Shown one piece after another: positions 16,644-60,736 of a DNA stretch of 64,000 bases. The stretch is from an uncultured Eubacteriales bacterium (lineage in GTDB: Bacteria > Bacillota > Clostridia > Christensenellales > Aristaeellaceae): assembly GCA_902765735.1 (NCBI GenBank), contig CACXBB010000001.1, forward strand, positions 1 through 64,000, read 5' to 3'. Under the pieces are notes generated by a model. That model was given only the letters and a program-made list of their open reading frames with translations. It had not been told where the DNA came from and did no database searches. Position 1 is the stretch's first letter, and the number at the start of each line of letters is the position of its first letter. The position numbers and the translations under genes were made by a program.

Positions 16644-16815
16644 AGAGGGAACAGGGAACAGGGAACAGGGAACAGGAATAGCCGCTACCGCGCGGATTAT
16701 CCGTAGGGACGCCATTCATGGCGTCCGCGAATACCTCCGTAGGGGCGGCGACGCGCCGCCCGCTCGAACGGAACCATGGATTCGTATTGGGCGGGCGCCG
16801 CATCGGCGCCTCTAC
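16644..16815. repeat. Heptamer tandem repeat plus family C palindromes
   Basis: GGGAACA is repeated about four times (16644-16677). Next comes GAATAGCCGCTACCGC, then family C palindromes: GGACGCCATTCATGGCGTCC (near 16707-16726), a GGGCGGCG/CGCCGCCC hairpin and GGGCGCCGCATCGGCGCC (to about 16815). The order matches the block at 60.4-60.7 kb. It occupies most of the 313-bp gap between the convergent ndoA and ACT genes; the remaining bases to 16909 show no gene. Confidence 0.75.
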
Positions 16816-40772: not shown

Positions 40773-40852
40773 GTAGGGGCGGCGATGCGCCGCCCGCCGT
40801 GAAGGTACGTTGTGTATCGTACCCGGGCGGGCGCCGCATCGGCGCCCCTACG
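40773..40852. repeat. Family C palindromic repeat pair
   Basis: GTAGGGGCGGCGATGCGCCG at one end and GGGCGCCGCATCGGCGCCCC at the other, separated by about 30 bp. The downstream bases (GAATCTGTATGCGTTTTG) resemble those after the copies at 45.2 and 60.6 kb, so the element extends beyond the palindromes. It lies in the 172-bp gap between convergent genes. Confidence 0.8.
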
Positions 40853-51536: not shown

Positions 51537-51565
51537 TTTACAAAAGTCACATTCTATGTTACTAT
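51537..51565 (+). promoter_or_regulatory. rnf operon promoter
   Basis: TTTACA (51537-51542) and TACTAT (51560-51565) with a 17-bp spacer. A 120-nt leader follows before rnfC; no clear regulatory structure or leader peptide is recognised in it. Confidence 0.65.
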
Positions 51566-51685
51566 ATATGTAAGACAATGCGGAGGGTCCGCGAGGGGAT
51601 ATCGGGTTTGGGAAGACATGATATGATTGCCTTCTTTATTATGTATTTTTGGAGAATAAACATCGACGGAAAGGGGTAGAAGACG

Positions 51686-53035
51686 GTGAGAAATACATTT
51701 CGCGGCGGCGTGCACCCGGCTTACCACAAGGAACTGAGCCGGGAGCAGGCGCTGCGTCCGTTCGAGGCGAAGGGGGAGATGGTCTATCCGCTCGCCCATC
51801 ACATCGGAAAGCCCGCGAAGCCCGTGGTCAAGAAAAACGACCCGGTGCTGGTGGGCCAGCGAATCGCCGAGGCGGACGGCTACGTGTCCGCCAACATATT
51901 CAGCGCCTGTTCCGGCAAGGTGAAGGCGGTGGAGAAGCGCCGCACCCTGTCGGGCGCCATGCAGGAGTGCGTGGTGATCGACAACGACGGCCTGTACACG
52001 AAGGCGGAGGGCTTCGGGACCCGCGAGGACGTGTCGGGGCTCACCAATCAGGAGATCGTGGACCGCGTGCGCGATGCGGGCATCATCGGCCTGGGCGGCG
52101 CGGGCTTCCCGACCCACGTGAAGCTCTCGCCGAAGGCGCCGGACGATATCAAATACGTCATCGCCAACGGCGCGGAGTGCGAGCCCTACCTCACCTGCAA
52201 CGATCAGCTGATGCGCACCCAGGCGGACGCCATCGTGGAGGGCCTGGAAATTATGCTCCGGCTCTTCAAGAACGCCCACGGCGTCGTGGCCATCGAGGAC
52301 AACAAGCCCGTGGCCATCGCCGCCATGATCCAGGCGGCCCAGGGCCACAGCCGCATACGGGTGCTGTCGATGAACACGAAGTACCCGCAGGGCGGTGAGA
52401 AGAGCCTGATCAGCGCCATCGCCGGCAAGGATTATCCCGCCCGGATGCTGCCCGCGGACGTGGGCTGCATCGTGGAGAACGTGGGCACGATCCTCGCCAT
52501 ACAGCGCGCGGTGGTGTTCAGGGAGCCGCTTTACACGCACTGCTTCACCCTCACCGGCGACGCGGTGAAGAACCCCGGCAACTACATGGTGCCGGACGGG
52601 GCGAGCTTCGCGGAGCTCGTGGAGTATTCCGGCGGGCTCAAGGAAGGCGTGACGCTCAAAAAGGCGCTGGCCGGCGGCCCGATGATGGGCATCGCCATGG
52701 CGTCGCTGGACGTGCCGATCCAGAAGATGAACAACGGCCTCACGCTGCTCACCGACGATCCGGCGGAGCTGGCGGAGGCGCAGATGACCGCGTGCCTGCA
52801 CTGCGGGCGCTGCACCACGGTCTGTCCGCTGGGGCTCATGCCGCAGCTCATGGCCGACGCCATCGTGGACAAGGACATGGACCGCTTCGAGAACAGGCTC
52901 TACGGCCTGGAGTGCATGCAGTGCGGCAGCTGCAGCTATATCTGCCCTGCCAAGCGCCCGCTGACGCAGATGTTCAAGCAGGCCAAGGGCGAAATCATGG
53001 CGCGCAAACGCGCGGAGGCGGGAGGTAAAAAATGA
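51686..53035 (+). CDS. rnfC: Rnf complex subunit RnfC
   Basis: RnfC is the peripheral NADH-side subunit of the ion-pumping ferredoxin:NAD oxidoreductase. The 449-aa product starts at a GTG (FRGGVHPAYHKELS). It contains the FMN/NADH-binding Gly-rich loop GIIGLGGAGFPTHVKL (about residue 131), the NGAECEPYLTCND motif and two 4Fe-4S clusters in the C-terminal part (CLHCGRCTTVCP and CMQCGSCSYICP). It leads a tightly spaced cluster rnfC-DG-E-A-B with 4-nt overlaps. Confidence 0.96.
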   Translation: MRNTFRGGVHPAYHKELSREQALRPFEAKGEMVYPLAHHIGKPAKPVVKKNDPVLVGQRIAEADGYVSANIFSACSGKVKAVEKRRTLSGAMQECVVIDNDGLYTKAEGFGTREDVSGLTNQEIVDRVRDAGIIGLGGAGFPTHVKLSPKAPDDIKYVIANGAECEPYLTCNDQLMRTQADAIVEGLEIMLRLFKNAHGVVAIEDNKPVAIAAMIQAAQGHSRIRVLSMNTKYPQGGEKSLISAIAGKDYPARMLPADVGCIVENVGTILAIQRAVVFREPLYTHCFTLTGDAVKNPGNYMVPDGASFAELVEYSGGLKEGVTLKKALAGGPMMGIAMASLDVPIQKMNNGLTLLTDDPAELAEAQMTACLHCGRCTTVCPLGLMPQLMADAIVDKDMDRFENRLYGLECMQCGSCSYICPAKRPLTQMFKQAKGEIMARKRAEAGGKK

Positions 53036-54606
53036 ACAACGCATTGAATCTGTCCTCCGGCCCGCACATTCGGGATAAATGGACGACGCCGTATATCATG
53101 CACGTGGTGTCCCTGTCGCTGTTGCCGGCGACCATCGTGGGCGTGTGCGTGCACGGGCTGAACGCGCTGATGGTGGTGCTGGCGTCGGTGTTTACCGCGG
53201 TGGCGTCGGAGTTCGCGTTCGACAAGCTGTGCCACAAGCCGGACACCTGGAAGGACGGCAGCGCCATCGTGACGGGCCTGATGCTGGCGCTGTGCCTGTC
53301 CCCGGACTGCCCGCTGCACCTGCCCGTGATCGGCGCGATGTTCGCCATACTGGTGGTGAAGTGCTGCTTCGGCGGCCTGGGCAAGAACTTCCTGAACCCG
53401 GCGCTGGCGGCCCGGTGCTTCCTGCTGATCTCCTTCGGCACCAGCATGACCCGCTTCACCGTGGACGGCGTCTCGACCGCGACCCCGGTGGCGGAGCTCA
53501 TACAGGGCAAGGCGGTCAACATCACCAGCATGTTCCTGGGCACGGCCCCCGGCGTCATCGGCGGCAGCGCGCTGGCGCTGTTGATCGGCGGACTGGTACT
53601 GTGGTCGCTGGATATCATCCACGGCGAGATCTGCTTCTCGGTGCTGGGCGGCTTTACGCTGTTCATCGGGCTGTTTGGCGGCCAGGGCTTTGATCCCAAG
53701 TACCTCGCCGCGAACATCTGCGGCGGCGGCGTGATCATGGCAGCCTTCTACATGGCCACCGACTACACCACCTCCCCCGTCAGCCGGCTGGGCCAGATGA
53801 TCTACGGCCTGACCATCGGCGTGCTGGGCGGCATCTTCCGCCTGTACGGCGGCTCGGCGGACTCCTTCAGCTACTCGGTGATCTCCGCCAACCTGCTGAC
53901 CCCCGTGATCGACATGAACATCTTCCCGAAGCCCTACGCCTTCCGGAAGAAGTCCGTGCTCACCCGCGGCAACATCGGCGTGGGCGACCTGATCAGCCGC
54001 GTGCCCAGGCCGGTGGTGGTGCTGACCACCATCACGATCATCGCGGGCCTGGCCTTAAGCGGCGTGTTCTCCATGACCAAGGACACCATCGAGAACCAGA
54101 AGCTGGCGGCCAACCTGGCCTCCTTCCAGGTGGTCGTGCCCGAGGCGGAGAGCTTCAAGTCCGACGAGACCATCGACCAGGCCATCGCCGATCTGAACGG
54201 CGGGGTGTACGGCTCGGACTTCGGGCGCGCGTACATCAACGAGGCCTATGTGGGCGTGGACGCCGCGGGCGAGACCGTGGGCTACGTGATCCGCGCCACC
54301 TCCTCCGACGGCTTTGACGGCGACGTCTCCATGGCCGTGGGCCTGAACGCCGAGGGCGCGATCAACGCTATCGACTTCACGACCCTCAACGAGACCCCCG
54401 GCATGGGCATGCGCGTGGCCGATCCGGAGTTCAAGGATCAGTTCAACGGCAGGGCCGTGAGCAAATTCACCCTGAACAAGGCCGGCGGCAGCACGGAGGA
54501 GGACCAGATCGACACCGTCTCCGGCGCGTCCACCACCTCCGGGGCCGTGGTCAACGCCGTGAACGCCGCGCTGGACTTCTTCAACACCACGGTGAAGGGA
54601 GGCTGA
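53032..54606 (+). CDS. rnfD: Fused RnfD-RnfG subunit of the Rnf complex
   Basis: One 524-aa frame covers two subunits. Residues 1 to about 312 are RnfD, with about ten helices and the covalent-FMN motif DGVSTAT at 145-151. After a cytoplasmic-looking linker (RKKSVLTRGNIGVGD) comes a helix at about 326-345, then the RnfG FMN-binding domain with SGASTT at 497-502, where the last Thr is the expected flavin site. Normally these are separate genes in the order rnfD, rnfG. No stop or start signal is visible at the junction, and the fusion keeps both flavin motifs. It overlaps rnfC by 4 nt. Confidence 0.93.
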   Translation: MNNALNLSSGPHIRDKWTTPYIMHVVSLSLLPATIVGVCVHGLNALMVVLASVFTAVASEFAFDKLCHKPDTWKDGSAIVTGLMLALCLSPDCPLHLPVIGAMFAILVVKCCFGGLGKNFLNPALAARCFLLISFGTSMTRFTVDGVSTATPVAELIQGKAVNITSMFLGTAPGVIGGSALALLIGGLVLWSLDIIHGEICFSVLGGFTLFIGLFGGQGFDPKYLAANICGGGVIMAAFYMATDYTTSPVSRLGQMIYGLTIGVLGGIFRLYGGSADSFSYSVISANLLTPVIDMNIFPKPYAFRKKSVLTRGNIGVGDLISRVPRPVVVLTTITIIAGLALSGVFSMTKDTIENQKLAANLASFQVVVPEAESFKSDETIDQAIADLNGGVYGSDFGRAYINEAYVGVDAAGETVGYVIRATSSDGFDGDVSMAVGLNAEGAINAIDFTTLNETPGMGMRVADPEFKDQFNGRAVSKFTLNKAGGSTEEDQIDTVSGASTTSGAVVNAVNAALDFFNTTVKGG

Positions 54607-54610
54607 CGGT

Positions 54611-55294
54611 ATGAACAAGTATGTTGAACGCCTGTACAACGGGCTCGTCAAGGAAAACCCGACGCTGATACTGATGCTGGGCATGTGCCCCACGCTGGCG
54701 GTTTCCACCCGCGCCATGAACGGTATCGGCATGGGCCTGTCCACCACGGCGGTGCTGATACTGTCCAACGTGGTGATCTCCCTGCTTCGCAAGGTGATCC
54801 CCGACGAGGTGCGCCTGCCCGCCTACATCGTGGTGGTGGCTTCGCTGGTGACGGTGACGGAGCTGTTGATCGAGGCCTACCTGCCCTCGCTGTACGCGGC
54901 CCTGGGCATCTATATCCCGCTGATCGTCGTGAACTGCATCATACTGGGCCGCGCAGAGGCCTACGCCAACAAGCATACCCCGGGGCTCAGCTTCATGGAC
55001 GGCCTGGGCATGGGCCTGGGCTTCACCATCGCGCTGACCCTGGCGGGCCTGTTCCGCGAGGTGCTGGGCAACGGCACCGCCTTCGGCATTCAGGTGTTGC
55101 CCGCCAGCGTCGAGCCCATCGCCATTTTCATACAGCCTCCGGGGGCGTTCCTGGTGATCGCCGCCATCATTGCGGTCCAGAACGCCATCGGCATCAAGAC
55201 CCGCCAGCGCAAGCTGGTGGAGGGCGGCTGCAGCGGCGTGTGCGCCACCTGCTCCGCCCAGTGCGGCATGAATGAGGAGGTGTCGGCCAAGTGA
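54611..55294 (+). CDS. rnfE: Rnf complex subunit RnfE
   Basis: An integral membrane subunit (227 aa, six helices) related to NqrD. Recognisable segments are NPTLILMLGMCPTLAVSTRAMNGIGMG, VNCIILGRAEAYANK and DGLGMGLGFTIALTL. Cys26 in the first helix is the conserved position for the intramembrane iron-sulfur cluster shared with RnfA. A C-terminal tail rich in Cys (CSGVCATCSAQCG) follows the last helix. GGAGG precedes the ATG, and the stop overlaps the rnfA GTG. Confidence 0.95.
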   Translation: MNKYVERLYNGLVKENPTLILMLGMCPTLAVSTRAMNGIGMGLSTTAVLILSNVVISLLRKVIPDEVRLPAYIVVVASLVTVTELLIEAYLPSLYAALGIYIPLIVVNCIILGRAEAYANKHTPGLSFMDGLGMGLGFTIALTLAGLFREVLGNGTAFGIQVLPASVEPIAIFIQPPGAFLVIAAIIAVQNAIGIKTRQRKLVEGGCSGVCATCSAQCGMNEEVSAK

Positions 55295-55872
55295 ACACCA
55301 GCTTGATCATGATCGTGATCGGCGCCGCGCTGATCAACAACGTGGTGCTCAACCAGTTCCTGGGCATCTGCTCCTTCCTGGGCGTGTCCAAGCAGATGAA
55401 GGCATCCGCCTCGCTGGGCATGGCGGTGGTGTTCGTCATCACCATCGCCTCCGCCGTGGCCAACCTGCTCTACGACTACGTGCTGAACCCGCTGGGCCTG
55501 GACTTTATGAAGACCATCGTGTTCATACTGGTCATCGCCGCGCTGGTGCAGATCGTGGAGATGTTCTTAAAAAAGACCTCCCCGGCGATCTACAAGGCGC
55601 TGGGCATCTACCTGCCGCTGATCACCACAAACTGCGCGGTGCTGGGCGTGGCGCTGACCAACGTGCAGAACGGCTACAACTTCCTGGAGAGCATACTGGC
55701 CGGCTTCGGCACGGCGGTGGGCTACACGCTGGCCATCGTGCTGCTGGCGGGCATTCGCTCCCGCATTCACGAGGAGGATATCCCCGCACCCCTGCGCGGC
55801 GCGCCCATCGTGATGATCTCCGCGGCGCTGATGTCCATTGCGTTCATGGGCTTCTCCGGCCTGTCGTTCTGA
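55291..55872 (+). CDS. rnfA: Rnf complex subunit RnfA
   Basis: The NqrE-like membrane subunit, 193 aa with six helices in inverted symmetry to RnfE. Markers are NNVVLNQFLGICSFLGVSKQ (with the conserved cluster Cys), the second Cys in YLPLITTNCAVLGVAL, and GTAVGYTLAIVLLAGIRSRI. It starts at a GTG overlapping rnfE by 4 nt and ends 13 bp before rnfB. Confidence 0.96.
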   Translation: MNTSLIMIVIGAALINNVVLNQFLGICSFLGVSKQMKASASLGMAVVFVITIASAVANLLYDYVLNPLGLDFMKTIVFILVIAALVQIVEMFLKKTSPAIYKALGIYLPLITTNCAVLGVALTNVQNGYNFLESILAGFGTAVGYTLAIVLLAGIRSRIHEEDIPAPLRGAPIVMISAALMSIAFMGFSGLSF

Positions 55873-55885
55873 GGGAGGTGCGGAC

Positions 55886-56689
55886 ATGCAGATCATCATT
55901 GTAACCACCATCGTCATCGCACTGGTCGGCGTCATCGTGGGCGCGGGACTGGTGTATACGGGCAATAAGTTCCACGTCGAAGTGGACGAGCGGGAGGCCG
56001 CCGTGCGCGAGGTCCTGCCCGGCAACAACTGCGGCGCCTGCGGCTTCGCGGGCTGCGACGCCATGGCGGCGGCCATCGCCAAGGGGGAGGCTCCGGTGAA
56101 CGGCTGTCCCGTGGGCGGCGCGCCGGTGGCCAAGCAGATCGGCGAGATCATGGGCACCTCCGCCGACGCCGCCGAGCGCAGGGTCGCCTTCGTGCGCTGC
56201 AAGGGCTCCTGCGAGGTCACCCACAACCAGGGCAACTACATCGGCATCAACGACTGCCGCGCGGCGGCGCTGTCGGGCATCAACGTTACCGAGTGCGACT
56301 ACGGCTGCATGGGCTTCGGCACCTGCGCCCAGGTCTGCCCGCAGGACGCCATCAACGTGGTGGACGGCGTGGCGGTGGTCAACCGGGCCCGCTGCGTGGG
56401 CTGCGGCCTGTGCGTGAAGGCCTGCCCGAAGCACCTGATCGAGCTGGTGCCCGAGTCCAAGCGCGTGATCGTTCAGTGCTCCAACCGGGACAAGGGCCCC
56501 ATGGTGAAGAAGGTGTGCAAGGCGGGCTGCATCGGCTGCGGCATCTGCCAGAAGCAGTGCGCCTTTGACGCCATCCATGTTGCCGACAACCTGGCCGCCG
56601 TCAACTATGAAAACTGCGTGCAGTGCGGCAGGTGCGTATCGAAGTGTCCGGCCAAGGTCATCACCGAACCGGAGAGCGTTTCCGATTGA
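55886..56689 (+). CDS. rnfB: Rnf complex subunit RnfB (polyferredoxin)
   Basis: RnfB accepts electrons from reduced ferredoxin. ATG 55886 follows GAGGGAGGTG. The 267-aa protein has one N-terminal helix (IIIVTTIVIALVGVIVGAGLVY), an Fe-S domain (LPGNNCGACGFAGCDAM...NGC) and ferredoxin-type clusters in its C-terminal part: CMGFGTCAQVCP, CVGCGLCVKACP, CIGCGICQKQC and CVQCGRCVSKCP. This is the last Rnf gene; nrfA follows after 18 bp. Confidence 0.96.
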   Translation: MQIIIVTTIVIALVGVIVGAGLVYTGNKFHVEVDEREAAVREVLPGNNCGACGFAGCDAMAAAIAKGEAPVNGCPVGGAPVAKQIGEIMGTSADAAERRVAFVRCKGSCEVTHNQGNYIGINDCRAAALSGINVTECDYGCMGFGTCAQVCPQDAINVVDGVAVVNRARCVGCGLCVKACPKHLIELVPESKRVIVQCSNRDKGPMVKKVCKAGCIGCGICQKQCAFDAIHVADNLAAVNYENCVQCGRCVSKCPAKVITEPESVSD

Positions 56690-56707
56690 TATGAGGGAGG
56701 GAGAACC

Positions 56708-57988
56708 ATGGAGAGAAAGCACTACATCAGACTGATCGCCTCGGCGGTGGTCGTGGTGGCTGCGGTGGTCTTCCTGGGCGGTATCGCCGGCGGCAGCGTG
56801 ATGTACCACATGGACAGCCGCGGCGACATGGGCCCGCTCACCCGGGAGGACATCGTCTACCTCGATGTCGAAGCCCCCGAGGCCACCAGCAAGGACGGCA
56901 CCGTCAATGCTCAGGACTGGGCGTCCGTCTACCCGTACATCAGCGTAAGCTGGGGCAACAACAGGGACAACAGCTATGTGACCGACTATTTGGAGCAGGA
57001 CCCGTACCTGGTCAACATCTACGAGGGCTACGGCTTTGCCAAGGACTACGGCAGCGCCCGCGGCCACGAGTACTGCCTGGAGGACGTGCACAAGACCCAG
57101 CGCCCCCACGCCAAGGCCAACTGCCTGACCTGCAAGACCCCCAACTTCGCCAAGCTGGTCAACGACCAGGGCGTGAGCGCGTACTCCATGCCCTTTGAAG
57201 AGGCGGAGGCCCTGATGGAGGAGAGCGTGAGCTGCTACACCTGCCACGCCAACGAGGCCGGCAAGGGCGGCGTGCGCGTGGTGACCCACTCCTACGTCAA
57301 CAAGGCCCTGGGCGACAACGTGAGCGCCATCGACCCGTCCAACATGGCCTGCGGCCAGTGCCACATCGAGTACTACTTCACCCCCGAGGACTCCGAGACC
57401 ATGATGCCCTACCACAGCGTGGAGGAGATGACCCCGGAGGCCATACTGGCCTACTACGACGAGCTCGGCTTCAAGGACTGGGTGCAGGAATCCACCGGCA
57501 CGCCGCTTCTGAAGGCCCAGCATCCCGAGTTTGAGACCTTCCTGCAGGGCAAGCACGCCGCGTTTTTGAACTGCGCCGACTGCCACATGCCCATCGAGAT
57601 GGCCGACGACGGCACCGTGTACCACAGCCACACCCTCGTGAGCCCCCTGGAGAACGACACGCTGCTTCAGACCTGCGCCAAGTGCCATGCCGATACCGAC
57701 ATGACCAAGCTGGTGAAGGGCATCCAGGAGCGCGTCACCGCCCGCGAGACCGAGGTCGGCAACAAGCTGTCCGAGTTCAAGACCGCGCTGGCCGAGGCCG
57801 TCACCGAGGGCAAGAAGTCCGAGGAGGAGCTGGACGCCATCCGCAAGCTGCACCGCGAGGCCCAGTGGTTCTTTGACTTCTGCTACGTCGAGAACGCCGA
57901 GGGCGCGCATAACTCTGAGCTGGCCATGCGCTGCCTGGATACCTCGGAGAGCAAGATCGCCGAGGCCATGGCGCTGCTCGAGGCCTGA
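56708..57988 (+). CDS. nrfA: Pentaheme cytochrome c nitrite reductase NrfA, membrane-anchored
   Basis: NrfA reduces nitrite to ammonium with six electrons outside the cytoplasmic membrane. In the 426-aa product an N-terminal helix (about 9-33) without a clear cleavage site would anchor it. Five heme sites are visible: the catalytic CLTCK at 139-143, with the Lys ligand specific to NrfA, and CYTCH 176-180, CGQCH 215-219, CADCH 289-293 and CAKCH 323-327. CGQCHIEYYF holds the calcium-site and catalytic Tyr, and KAQHPEFETF and HSHTL carry expected His residues. GGGAGG precedes the ATG. It directly follows rnfB, and no nrfH is present. Confidence 0.96.
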   Translation: MERKHYIRLIASAVVVVAAVVFLGGIAGGSVMYHMDSRGDMGPLTREDIVYLDVEAPEATSKDGTVNAQDWASVYPYISVSWGNNRDNSYVTDYLEQDPYLVNIYEGYGFAKDYGSARGHEYCLEDVHKTQRPHAKANCLTCKTPNFAKLVNDQGVSAYSMPFEEAEALMEESVSCYTCHANEAGKGGVRVVTHSYVNKALGDNVSAIDPSNMACGQCHIEYYFTPEDSETMMPYHSVEEMTPEAILAYYDELGFKDWVQESTGTPLLKAQHPEFETFLQGKHAAFLNCADCHMPIEMADDGTVYHSHTLVSPLENDTLLQTCAKCHADTDMTKLVKGIQERVTARETEVGNKLSEFKTALAEAVTEGKKSEEELDAIRKLHREAQWFFDFCYVENAEGAHNSELAMRCLDTSESKIAEAMALLEA

Positions 57989-58005
57989 ACTCCGATCGAC
58001 GCACA

Positions 58006-58026
58006 GGGGCGGCATATCGCCGCCCC
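58006..58026. repeat. Family C-like hairpin between nrfA and resB
   Basis: GGGGCGGC (58006-58013) and GCCGCCCC (58019-58026) with a 5-nt loop, followed by TTGAATTGT. It may weakly terminate the nrfA transcript or be a trimmed family C repeat. Confidence 0.55.
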
Positions 58027-58051
58027 TTGAATTGTATTATATGATAACGCC

Positions 58052-59335
58052 ATGAAGAAGATATGGAAATTCCTGTCCTCGATGAGATTCGCCATCATAC
58101 TGCTCGCGGTGCTGGCGCTGGCGTGCTCGGCGGCAAGTTTGATCACCCAGGGGCAGAGCTACGAATGGTACGCCCGGCAGTACTCCGAGCGCACCGCGGC
58201 GCTGATCGTGGCGCTTCATCTGGACGACGCCTTTCACAGCGCGTGGTTTCTGCTCATCAACGCCTTTCTGTGCGTGAACCTGCTGTTCTGCAACCTGCTG
58301 AGGCTGCCGCAGCTCATCGCGCGCACGAAGGCCGAGGCGGACCCCGCCCGGGCCCTCGAGACGGAGGGCGCGGCGCAGGCCGGCCCGGTGCGCGACCCCG
58401 GTCGCGTGTTCAGACGCCTGCGCATGCCGAATCCGGTCAGCACCGCCACGGCGGACGGCCGGGAGGCGCTGTTCAGCTCCGCGCACCGCGCGGGGCTGTG
58501 GGGCGCGTGGGTGTGCCACTTGGGCATACTGCTGCTGATACTGGGCTTCGGCCTGGGCCAGATGACCCAGAAGCAGTACACGGTCTACGGCGTGCCGGGG
58601 CAGACCCGGCCCATCGGGGACACAGGCTACCTGCTGACCATCGACGACTTTGAGGTGGGCCTGCGCCCGGACGACACCGTGGAGCAGTACACCGCCGCCA
58701 TCACCGTCCGGGACGTGGACGGCAGGGGCAGCCAAAGCGCGACCGTCTCCGTCAACAACCCGGCCTCCCTGTACGGCATGAAGTTCTACCAGAACTCCAC
58801 CGGCTGGGCGGCGCGGATCAATGTCCAGAAGGACGGCGCGCCGCTCCAGGACGAGGTGGTCTGCGCCGGGGAATACCTGATCGTGAAGGACAAGCCCGAC
58901 CTGGTGGTGTTCTTCAGCGCCTTCTACCCGGACTACGTGCTGACCCCCGGGGTGGGGCCGTCCACCGCCACCGGCGCGCTGAAGAACCCGGCATACCTGT
59001 ATCAGGTGTACTACAGGGAGCAGCTGCTGGGCATGAACGTGCTGATGCCGGAGGAGGAGCTGACCATCGACGAGTACACCGTCACCTTCACTGACCCGCA
59101 GAACTACACGCTGATACAGATCAAGGCGGATCACTTCACGTGGCTGGCGCTCATCGGCGGGCTTTTGACGATGCTCGGCCTGATACTGGCCTTCTACGTG
59201 CAGCCCGCGAGGGTGTGGGCCGTGAAGAATGATGTGGGCTGGACGATCCACGGCACGTGCCGCAAGGGCGGCGCGCTGTTCAGGGACCGGCTGATCGAGG
59301 CCGCAAGGGAGGAGGGCGCCGATGCTTCAAGTTGA
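58052..59335 (+). CDS. resB: Cytochrome c biogenesis protein ResB/Ccs1
   Basis: ResB is half of the system II cytochrome c synthetase that moves heme outward and attaches it to CxxCH motifs. The 427-aa product begins IWKFLSSMRFAIILLAVLALACSAASLITQ, as in the family, with further helices at about 67-85, 150-170 and 370-390 and a large external domain between the last two. No Shine-Dalgarno is visible before ATG 58052; the upstream bases are AT-rich. It overlaps ccsA by 14 nt. Confidence 0.9.
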   Translation: MKKIWKFLSSMRFAIILLAVLALACSAASLITQGQSYEWYARQYSERTAALIVALHLDDAFHSAWFLLINAFLCVNLLFCNLLRLPQLIARTKAEADPARALETEGAAQAGPVRDPGRVFRRLRMPNPVSTATADGREALFSSAHRAGLWGAWVCHLGILLLILGFGLGQMTQKQYTVYGVPGQTRPIGDTGYLLTIDDFEVGLRPDDTVEQYTAAITVRDVDGRGSQSATVSVNNPASLYGMKFYQNSTGWAARINVQKDGAPLQDEVVCAGEYLIVKDKPDLVVFFSAFYPDYVLTPGVGPSTATGALKNPAYLYQVYYREQLLGMNVLMPEEELTIDEYTVTFTDPQNYTLIQIKADHFTWLALIGGLLTMLGLILAFYVQPARVWAVKNDVGWTIHGTCRKGGALFRDRLIEAAREEGADASS

Positions 59336-60137
59336 AAACACGCTGTTCACCGTCGTGATGCTGACCTACTTCGCGGCGATGATACTCTACTTCGCGTTCA
59401 TCGCCGTCAAGCGGGACGGCCTGGCGAGGGTGGCGCTGATCCTCCAGTCGGCGGGCTTCGTGCTGCACACGGCGGCGCTCATCTGCCGCGGCATCGGCGC
59501 GGGCCGCCTGCCCATGACCAATCAGTACGAGTTCGCCACGGCCTTTGCCTGGGGGCTTTGCCTGGTGAGCCTGATCTTCGTGGTGCGGTTCAGATTCCCC
59601 GTGCTGGGGGCCTTCGCCGCGCCGGTGATCTTCCTGATCATCGGCTACGCCGCCATGCAGAGCCGCGAGGTCAAGGCGCTGATGCCCGCCCTGCGCTCCA
59701 ACTGGCTGGGCTTCCACGTCTCCACCGCCATCATCGCCTACGGGGCCTTCGGGGTGTCGTTCGTGCTGTCGGTCATATTTCTCTTAAGGGACCGCATGAA
59801 GGCCCAGGGCTTCCTGGACCAGCACATCCCGAATAAGGAGAAGCTGGACCTCATAAGCTATCGCAGCGTGTCGCTGGGCCTGCTGTTTCTGACCTTTACC
59901 ATACTCACCGGCGCGATCTGGGCGGAGCGGGCCTGGGGCAGCTACTGGTCCTGGGACCCCAAGGAGACCTGGTCGCTGGTGACCTGGATCATCTACGCGA
60001 TGTATCTGCACCTGCGCATCCGCCGCGGCTGGAACGGCCGGGCGGCGGCGATCTTCGCGGCGGTGGGCTTCGTGTGCGTGATGTTCACCTATATCGGTGT
60101 CAACGTGCTGCTGCCCGGCGTCCACAGCTACGCATAG
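59322..60137 (+). CDS. ccsA: Cytochrome c biogenesis protein CcsA/ResC
   Basis: The heme-handling half of the system II synthetase. The 271-aa protein has eight helices and the WWD-domain signature WGSYWSWDPKETWSLVTW near residue 208-225. Conserved His are seen in the N-terminal helix pair, in SNWLGFHVSTA and in the last periplasmic loop (PGVHSYA). GGAGG lies inside the resB end, so the two are coupled. With resB it would mature the five hemes of NrfA; the unusual CxxCK heme may need a dedicated factor elsewhere. Confidence 0.94.
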   Translation: MLQVENTLFTVVMLTYFAAMILYFAFIAVKRDGLARVALILQSAGFVLHTAALICRGIGAGRLPMTNQYEFATAFAWGLCLVSLIFVVRFRFPVLGAFAAPVIFLIIGYAAMQSREVKALMPALRSNWLGFHVSTAIIAYGAFGVSFVLSVIFLLRDRMKAQGFLDQHIPNKEKLDLISYRSVSLGLLFLTFTILTGAIWAERAWGSYWSWDPKETWSLVTWIIYAMYLHLRIRRGWNGRAAAIFAAVGFVCVMFTYIGVNVLLPGVHSYA

Positions 60138-60149
60138 GAGGGGCGCGTC

Positions 60150-60407
60150 ATGCGATCATTCATGTATACCATCAAGGTGCCCGTGGGGCTGCACGCCCGC
60201 CACGCGGGACTGCTGGTGAAGGCGGCCAGCCTGTACCAGTCCGCGGTGACCGTCTCCCGGGGCGATAAGTCCGCCGACGGGAAGCGCATCCTTGGGCTGA
60301 TGGGGCTGGGCGTCAGGCAGGGCGACGTCATCAGGGTCGATATCGACGGCCCGGATGAGGATGTCGCTGCCCTGAGGATCAAGGCGTTTTTGTGGGAGAA
60401 CTTTTGA
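60150..60407 (+). CDS. HPr-like phosphocarrier protein
   Basis: An 85-aa protein of the PTS HPr fold. Numbering matches HPr exactly: VGLHARHAG puts the phosphorylatable His at position 15 and Arg at 17, but the usual Pro18 is His. At position 46, where Gram-positive HPr has the Ser targeted by HPr kinase, there is Arg (DGKRILGLMGLGV). It can therefore perhaps accept phosphate from enzyme I but not be controlled by HPr kinase. TAGGAGGGG precedes the ATG. It is the last gene of the Rnf-NrfA-Ccs cluster and ends in a strong terminator. No other PTS gene is nearby. Confidence 0.85.
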   Translation: MRSFMYTIKVPVGLHARHAGLLVKAASLYQSAVTVSRGDKSADGKRILGLMGLGVRQGDVIRVDIDGPDEDVAALRIKAFLWENF

Positions 60408-60441
60408 GAAAAGGGGATTTGCGGAGGCAAATCCCCTTTTC
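60408..60441 (+). terminator. Terminator of the Rnf-NrfA cluster
   Basis: A perfect 15-bp stem (GAAAAGGGGATTTGC, 60408-60422, with 60427-60441) around loop GGAG. The T-run is on the right arm, immediately after the stop of the HPr-like gene. Confidence 0.9.
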
Positions 60442-60736
60442 AGGGAACAGGAAACAGGGAACAGGGAACAGGGAACAGGAAACAGGGAACAGGAAACAGG
60501 GAACAGGAATAGTGGCTGCCGCCTTCTGAAAACGTCATCAGCTTGTGGATCGCTATGGGGGAGAATGAATCCGGCGATTATCGTAGGGACGCCATTCATG
60601 GCGTCCGCGAATACCGCGACCACCGTAGGGGCGGCGTATCGCCGCCCCTACGCATGTTTCGTGAATATGTATGCACAGAGAAAGAGTGGTTGCGGTATCA
60701 GCGCGGCAGCGGCATTTCCTGTTCCCTGTTCCCTCC
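60441..60736. repeat. Composite element: GGGAACA tandem tract, family C palindromes, inverted end
   Basis: GGGAACA/GGAAACA heptamers run from about 60441 to 60508, then GAATAGTGGCTGCCGCC. Family C palindromes occupy 60583-60652. At the right, GGCAGCGGCATTTCCTG followed by TTCCCTGTTCCCTCC (to about 60736) is the inverted counterpart of the left end. The block with the 20-nt palindrome GGACGCCATTCATGGCGTCC is shared with 16.7 kb. It fills most of the 387-bp gap; no gene is seen. Confidence 0.8.

Follow-up and report, generated by a model that had tools for sequence, protein, structure and literature searches.

The window, a stretch of 64,000 nucleotides from an uncultured Eubacteriales bacterium, has nine collinear genes on its + strand: rnfC, an rnfD-rnfG fusion, rnfE, rnfA, rnfB, nrfA, resB, ccsA/ccsB and an HPr-like gene (Table 1). 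This order, proposed by a first-pass annotation made from the letters alone, is borne out by the open reading frames (ORFs) and by family profiles. All subunits of the Rnf complex (C, D, G, E, A and B) are encoded, with D and G as one protein, and this is the one Rnf of the genome. The rnf genes are followed by a predicted ammonia-forming cytochrome c nitrite reductase, NrfA, and by the cytochrome c maturation genes. It is probable that the cluster constitutes a quinone-independent respiratory module, in which electrons from Rnf reach NrfA via covalent flavin.

Table 1. Genes and signals of the rnf-nrfA cluster, in window positions (FMN, flavin mononucleotide; NADH, reduced nicotinamide adenine dinucleotide; aa, amino acids)
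Feature	Positions	Strand	Evidence
Promoter-like sites 5' of rnfC	51537-51565, 51613-51642	+	consensus scan only
rnfC (NADH/FMN, two 4Fe4S)	51686-53035	+	TIGR01945 E 2.4e-143; 8 cluster cysteines in 60/60 relatives
rnfD-rnfG fusion	53032-54606	+	PF03116 aa 7-302, then PF04205 FMN_bind aa 427-515
Flavin sites of the rnfD-rnfG fusion: DGVSTATP in RnfD part, SGAS in RnfG part			motif conservation
rnfE, C-terminal CX3CX2CX3C tail	54611-55294	+	TIGR01948 E 1.1e-73
rnfA	55291-55872	+	TIGR01943 E 3.1e-78
rnfB (ferredoxin-side Fe-S subunit)	55886-56689	+	TIGR01944 E 1.3e-32; 25/25 cysteines kept in 60/60
nrfA, predicted ammonia-forming cytochrome c nitrite reductase	56708-57988	+	PF02335 E 9.4e-80
Palindromic hairpin between nrfA and resB	58006-58026	+
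resB, cytochrome c maturation	58052-59335	+	PF05140 E 3.6e-48
ccsA/ccsB, cytochrome c maturation	59322-60137	+	NCBIfam CcsB TIGR03144 E 7.4e-81
HPr-like gene	60150-60407	+	PF00381 E 2.2e-24
Terminator-like hairpin directly 3' of HPr	about 60408-60441	+	15-pair stem, z -5.8

Conservation of the rnf and nrfA genes

Loci were sampled from 120 genomes (the window's own and 119 relatives) and from a scan of named contigs (the best 79 of 519 confirmed), giving 111 loci, of which 100 are distinct. The scan of named contigs retains the nearest relatives, which skews the sample towards close kin; among the best 79 of the 519, at least 30 have record titles naming a ruminant host or gut compartment. A survey of the rnfB-nrfA junction, an idea of the first-pass annotation, finds rnfB upstream of nrfA on the same strand in 84 of the 100 distinct loci, and the full set of rnfC, DG, E, A and B precedes nrfA in 74. 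Nine of the 16 loci without an upstream rnfB have less than 2 kb of contig on that side, and in seven the genes are truly apart. The maturation genes resB and ccsB are present in 98 and 91 of the distinct loci. At the genome level NrfA occurs in 32 of the 120, and the DG-fused Rnf (E under 1e-200) in 31, 29 of which also have NrfA. The association of rnf with nrfA exceeds chance. Two genomes with a DG-type Rnf and no NrfA (G022 and G062) were rejected as counter-examples, their contigs ending inside rnfB or about 0.2 kb behind it.

The two cysteines each of RnfA and RnfE that belong to the membrane [2Fe2S] are kept in 60/60 relatives, as are the cluster cysteines of RnfB and RnfC. The Thr of the RnfD flavin site is likewise present in 60/60, and the RnfG flavin site has Ser in 43 and Thr in 17.

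RnfE also has a C-terminal cysteine tail (CX3CX2CX3C, window 55229-55264), which is strict in 68 of the 79 loci with a complete ORF, the window included. Of the 11 others most have looser spacing, one is a mis-assigned ORF and another is masked. The solved RnfE proteins 7zc6 and 9eri are too short for this tail. It is preceded by KTRQRK and is therefore probably cytosolic, and it may perhaps form an extra Fe-S or metal site. The tail is absent from L205 and L206. It is also lacking in L101-L104, a distant, Rnf-like second locus in which there are several FMN_bind stretches, with ApbE matches in the same stretches.

NrfA fusions and the identity of NrfA

In 14 of the 100 loci the NrfA reading frame also encodes FMN-binding domains. 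Thirteen of these are in the window's own genus, where they account for 13 of the 27 NrfA-bearing genomes (own included); the one outside it, L149, is an FMN_bind-FAD_binding_2-NrfA fusion. Pfam FMN_bind is confirmed in nine of ten tested fusions, and in L054 (motifs DAITSAS and DAITSSS), to which Pfam is blind, a model built from the fused proteins detected the domain. Ten fused loci have two to five N-terminal FMN domains each (five in L044), and L048 additionally has one at the C-terminus. The motif D-x-x-[ST]-[GS]-[AVS]-[ST] is found in 30/30 FMN domains of the ten listed loci, often as SGVT, and resembles the [S/T]GA[S/T]-like ApbE flavinylation site (PMC10979944). The genomes of L044, L048 and L050, each with several FMN domains (G009, G010 and G007), carry ApbE. 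In fused proteins such as those of L044 and L049 the FMN domains are joined to NrfA by repeated linkers such as DISRFxRPRP or AMKYMRxRPAF. Two loci outside the 14, L046 (contig cut) and L058 (broken frame), were labelled FMN on the NrfA tree from their linker repeats.

A second kind of fusion occurs in L163 and L166 (2/100), where rnfB has no stop and continues in frame into nrfA; inside this frame there is a start preceded by bases resembling a ribosome-binding site (RBS), so the two may also be translated separately. On the NrfA tree the FMN fusion shows two changes, the RnfB fusion two and the linkage of nrfA to rnf four, by a quick method that leaves 32 of 97 forks open and does not distinguish gain from loss. 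The FMN_bind-NrfA and in-frame RnfB-NrfA fusions are new relative to the first-pass annotation, and they support a link from the Rnf flavin to NrfA.

Fumarate-reductase-like proteins with FMN_bind and FAD_binding_2 occur in some of the loci. A separate gene of this type lies between rnfB and nrfA in L122 (together with tatC), L152 and L155, with Pfam run on L122 and L152, in addition to the NrfA-fused form in L149. Such flavinylated enzymes are also outer reductases with a covalent-flavin domain, but their active site is a flavin and not a haem. A gene resembling FMN_bind plus FAD_binding_2 precedes rnfC in L205-L207, three of five genomes with unlinked nrfA (Pfam run on L205 only).

The NrfA of the window (426 amino acids) has the motifs CLTCK, CYTCH, CGQCH, CADCH and CAKCH, and a hydrophobic N-terminal helix at residues 3-25 of the predicted model. 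The protein is probably membrane-anchored by this transmembrane helix, and the catalytic CxxCK haem, the four CxxCH haems and the anchor seen at first pass are all recovered. With a profile of 17 relatives a solved NrfA ranks first (3ubr, E 4.8e-66). The AlphaFold model built with 81 rows (pLDDT 89.2), which replaced a poor first model from 17 rows (pLDDT 62.6), has E. coli NrfA as its best Foldseek match (2rdz, E 7.3e-22, TMq 0.76), and ranks 1-23 are all NrfA. The active-site haem Lys is present in 100/100 loci and the tested haem Cys and His positions in 99-100 of 100. The same holds for the catalytic Arg, Tyr and His and for the calcium-site Glu, Lys and Gln, with Arg in 99 and the others in all 100 distinct loci. 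The Gln and His positions were placed on E. coli NrfA via alignments in which 2rf7 (Q263E) and 4wjy (H264N) differ. In L114 (10001-12433) a single protein of 811 amino acids contains two complete NrfA domains.

Proposed electron path and competing explanations

The usual redox partner of NrfA is NrfH (or NrfB), although this is usual and not definitional. The first-pass annotation had noted that the cluster lacks an NrfH-type gene, and that one elsewhere in the genome would speak against its proposal. The NrfH/NapC/CymA family (PF03264) has no match in the window's own genome, in any of the 120 genomes (own included) or in 50 further NrfA-bearing genomes, taken from 50 of the 79 named loci; NrfB and NrfBCD were not part of this search. 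The UbiA-type prenyltransferase (PF01040), which is required for menaquinone by either pathway, also has no match in the window's own genome, where other quinone genes were not searched. Above cut-off it is found in six of the 120 genomes, all without NrfA; another four matches are weak and below the cut-off, one of them (G027) in an NrfA-bearing genome. Three of the 50 further genomes (G125, G517 and G527) have it above cut-off and there is one weak match, giving 3/82 NrfA-bearing genomes overall (0/32 plus 3/50), while 14/14 controls match. This near absence of UbiA-type prenyltransferases supports quinone independence.

In the proposed path, Rnf would be reduced by ferredoxin, or by NADH with RnfC-RnfD running backwards, and electrons would arrive, on the outer side of the membrane, at the FMN bound covalently to the RnfG part. 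They would then pass to the membrane-anchored pentahaem NrfA, whose haems would be attached by ResB-CcsA, and reduce nitrite to ammonium. In one clade of relatives the extra, presumably covalently flavinylated domains of NrfA may act as a wire. Sodium pumping at RnfA/E would lie upstream of the branch and make the chain energy-conserving. In Acetobacterium woodii, Na+ transport by Rnf is driven when the [2Fe2S] of RnfA/E becomes reduced, after which electrons go from RnfG to RnfD; RnfD is outside the pumping, and RnfB and RnfG contact each other through their anchor helices (PMC11889175). By analogy, a branch at RnfG towards NrfA could keep the pump, since pumping at RnfA/E comes before RnfG, and an RnfB-NrfA fusion would place NrfA near RnfG. 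Sodium pumping is therefore likely to be retained by this analogy, and we infer it together with the electron path and nitrite as physiological substrate. Of the original proposal, direct and quinone-independent transfer from the Rnf flavins to NrfA is strengthened by the fusions, the lack of PF03264 and the scarcity of UbiA, and its energy-conserving part rests on the Rnf of another organism. There may be an even chance that the operon encodes one supercomplex that makes up an entire anaerobic respiratory chain, a sodium-motive, ammonium-forming ferredoxin:nitrite oxidoreductase without a quinone or an outer soluble carrier, in which NrfA sits next to the anchors of RnfB and RnfG. Such a complex would be widespread in uncultured ruminant-gut Clostridia, and in one clade as many as five covalent flavins would serve as its wiring.

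The idea of an Rnf-linked cytochrome is known. Meheust et al. 2021 (eLife) have one sentence on multi-flavinylated, multi-haem RnfG proteins in Christensenellales (PMC8238504, Figure 6H), which likewise belong to an Rnf cluster and carry several FMN domains together with a multi-haem one; that paper proposes a second electron exit of Rnf. It also suggests that the window's genus belongs to Christensenellales. These are probably the FMN_bind-NrfA fusions described here (accessions not matched). In our loci, unlike in that paper, which calls the proteins RnfG, RnfG is separate and fused to RnfD, the multi-haem part appears to be a catalytic NrfA, and most loci are unfused. The main text of that paper does not contain 'nrfA', and its two uses of 'nitrite' concern NapH-like clusters with NirS. 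In Methanosarcina acetivorans the multi-haem cytochrome MmcA, whose gene belongs to the rnf operon, accepts electrons from Rnf; Bacteria in which Rnf works between ferredoxin and NAD have no MmcA (PMC11024163). MmcA has seven haems, is a relative of the octahaem tetrathionate reductases and passes its electrons to methanophenazine or outer acceptors, whereas the NrfA here would be a terminal nitrite reductase with no evident membrane carrier. The accessible text of PMC12174285 names only the archaeal Rnf-linked cytochrome. Sporomusa ovata and Desulfovibrio vulgaris have a homologous NrfA (D. vulgaris 2j7a is among the fold matches) but with an NrfH partner, and in S. ovata rnf is in its own locus and unaffected by nitrate (PMC12780646). 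No description of an Rnf-NrfA module was met in the literature searched (few subscription journals, no supplements), and four elements appear new within it: the identification as NrfA, the operon in its unfused form, the fusions to RnfB and the survey of quinone genes.

Several observations weigh against an electron path from Rnf to NrfA. The nrfA gene is truly unlinked in 7 of 91 resolvable loci (L060, L061, L153, L168, L172, L176 and L179), no DG-fused Rnf was matched in the genomes of L060 and L061 (G066 and G047, NrfA 42-48% identical), and in G008, which has NrfA, the RnfDG match is no more than weak. Rnf and NrfA distances correlate moderately (r 0.62 over 60 loci, 0/1000 permutations as high), alongside 0.65 for Rnf-CcsB, 0.69 for RnfC-RnfDG and 0.46 for NrfA-CcsB, and this indicates nothing beyond operon co-inheritance. 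NrfA is rare in the class (5/391 genomes, own included), and the four other genomes give five outgroup loci. Four of these (L209-L212) are NrfA-ResB-CcsB clusters with no rnf or nrfH neighbour within 10 kb, apart from a stray 38% rnfB-like stretch in L210, which suggests that another donor may exist; L213 has a small haem protein upstream of NrfA. The rnfB-nrfA gaps of L033 (16020-16912), L035 (8185-9241) and L036 (8598-9286) contain small ORFs and not the separate FMN protein that was considered there. Those of L033 and L035 look like toxin-antitoxin genes from a reading of their sequence, with no search made, and nrfA may thus have its own promoter in these loci. DhcA of Desulfovibrio alaskensis, a decahaem cytochrome whose gene is the first of a transcript with rnfCDGEABF, has no shown role in Rnf electron flow and almost no role in fitness (PMC4215793). 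With this precedent, the unlinked loci and the rnf-free clusters, NrfA could be a mere neighbour that is co-regulated with Rnf and fed by another membrane donor, such as an unrecognised cytochrome b, hydrogenase or formate dehydrogenase. We regard this as unlikely: the NrfA tree has the RnfB-NrfA fusion in two positions and the FMN_bind fusion likewise in two, and each of the five genomes with unlinked nrfA that could be reached (L153, L168, L172, L176 and L179) still has a DG-fused Rnf elsewhere, although in one of them a contig end cuts it short.

The window itself also lacks some of the expected parts. Its NrfA has no FMN domain, and no ApbE match is found in its assembly (G000), even though flavinylation of its RnfD and RnfG sites would depend on ApbE; the marks of a multi-flavinylated extracytosolic protein (more than one FMN_bind with an ApbE motif, and ApbE in the genome) are therefore missing for the window NrfA and its assembly. 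The genome has 11 FMN_bind matches, one of which is its RnfG. ApbE is present in 101 of the 120 genomes and in 30 of the 32 with NrfA, the exceptions being the window's own and G011. As 26 of 27 same-genus relatives have it, its absence here is probably an assembly gap. The same incompleteness of draft genomes (the window's own is 96.7% complete), and the single positive control of the PF03264 search, E. coli, could be taken to mean that nrfH and quinone genes of a conventional quinol chain were missed. This is barely credible given the counts for PF03264 and UbiA and the matching of all 14 UbiA controls, and a missing NrfH due to an assembly gap was judged unlikely after the three surveys (own, 120 and 50 genomes).

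Nitric oxide is also reduced by NrfA enzymes. A tentative alternative, less favoured than the energy-conserving module, keeps the same wiring with NrfA mainly detoxifying nitrite, nitric oxide or hydroxylamine, or serving as a sink for excess ferredoxin electrons, without a useful ion gradient. Hydroxylamine is a further substrate of NrfA enzymes (PMC12780646), and the neighbouring FMN_bind/FAD_binding_2 genes point to several outer reductases being served by Rnf. The six-electron active site of NrfA is conserved, however, and with pumping before RnfG, as in PMC11889175, a sink fed by ferredoxin would still pump. It is quite improbable that the NrfA-type cytochrome is an extracellular conduit through which electrons from Rnf reach flavins, iron or other cells, nitrite reduction being a side reaction. 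MmcA plays this part in Methanosarcina (PMC11024163), and NrfA proteins preceded by as many as five FMN domains, as in L044, are wire-like, but a mere conduit would not need the conserved Lys-haem, Arg, Tyr, His and calcium-site residues.

If the energy-conserving module is correct, the respiratory chain would consist of two linked parts, an ion pump and a terminal reductase, with no quinone pool, and these bacteria, otherwise taken for fermenters, would respire. For the multi-haem, flavin-containing Rnf proteins reported in 2021 this would supply a likely catalytic role and a substrate that can be tested. In the rumen, reduction of nitrite to ammonium competes with methane formation for electrons and removes a toxic intermediate, so unrecognised nitrite reducers may be relevant there.

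Control signals and the HPr-like gene

The two + strand promoter-like matches in the 50.5-62 kb stretch both precede rnfC, in agreement with the promoter proposed in front of the cluster, and the consensus scan of this stretch has none 5' of nrfA; both strands together give six matches against 2.3 expected. The spacer between rnfB and nrfA is 18 nucleotides and contains a purine-rich, RBS-like stretch. Co-transcription of nrfA with resB-ccsA is less certain than that of rnf with nrfA, because of the hairpin before resB and its weak RBS. The stretch also has many long ORFs in its other frames, which were interpreted as shadow frames of GC-rich DNA.

The strong terminator of the first-pass annotation needs correction, since the hairpin at 60624-60652 contains a recurring palindrome that is also present in front of resB; the 15-pair hairpin directly behind the HPr-like gene is the better candidate. 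The palindrome, GGGGCGGC-N4-CGCCGCCCC, is found at 58006-58026, 60628-60648, 16742-16762 and 40776-40796, with eight matches on both strands against 0.3 expected.

The HPr-like gene is probably incidental to the cluster. It is otherwise found downstream of ccsB only in the two nearest relatives of the window (L031 and L032). HPr-like genes about 40% identical to that of the window lie just 5' of rnfC in L165 (4543-4767) and L171 (4491-4718), which suggests that HPr joined Rnf clusters at either end.

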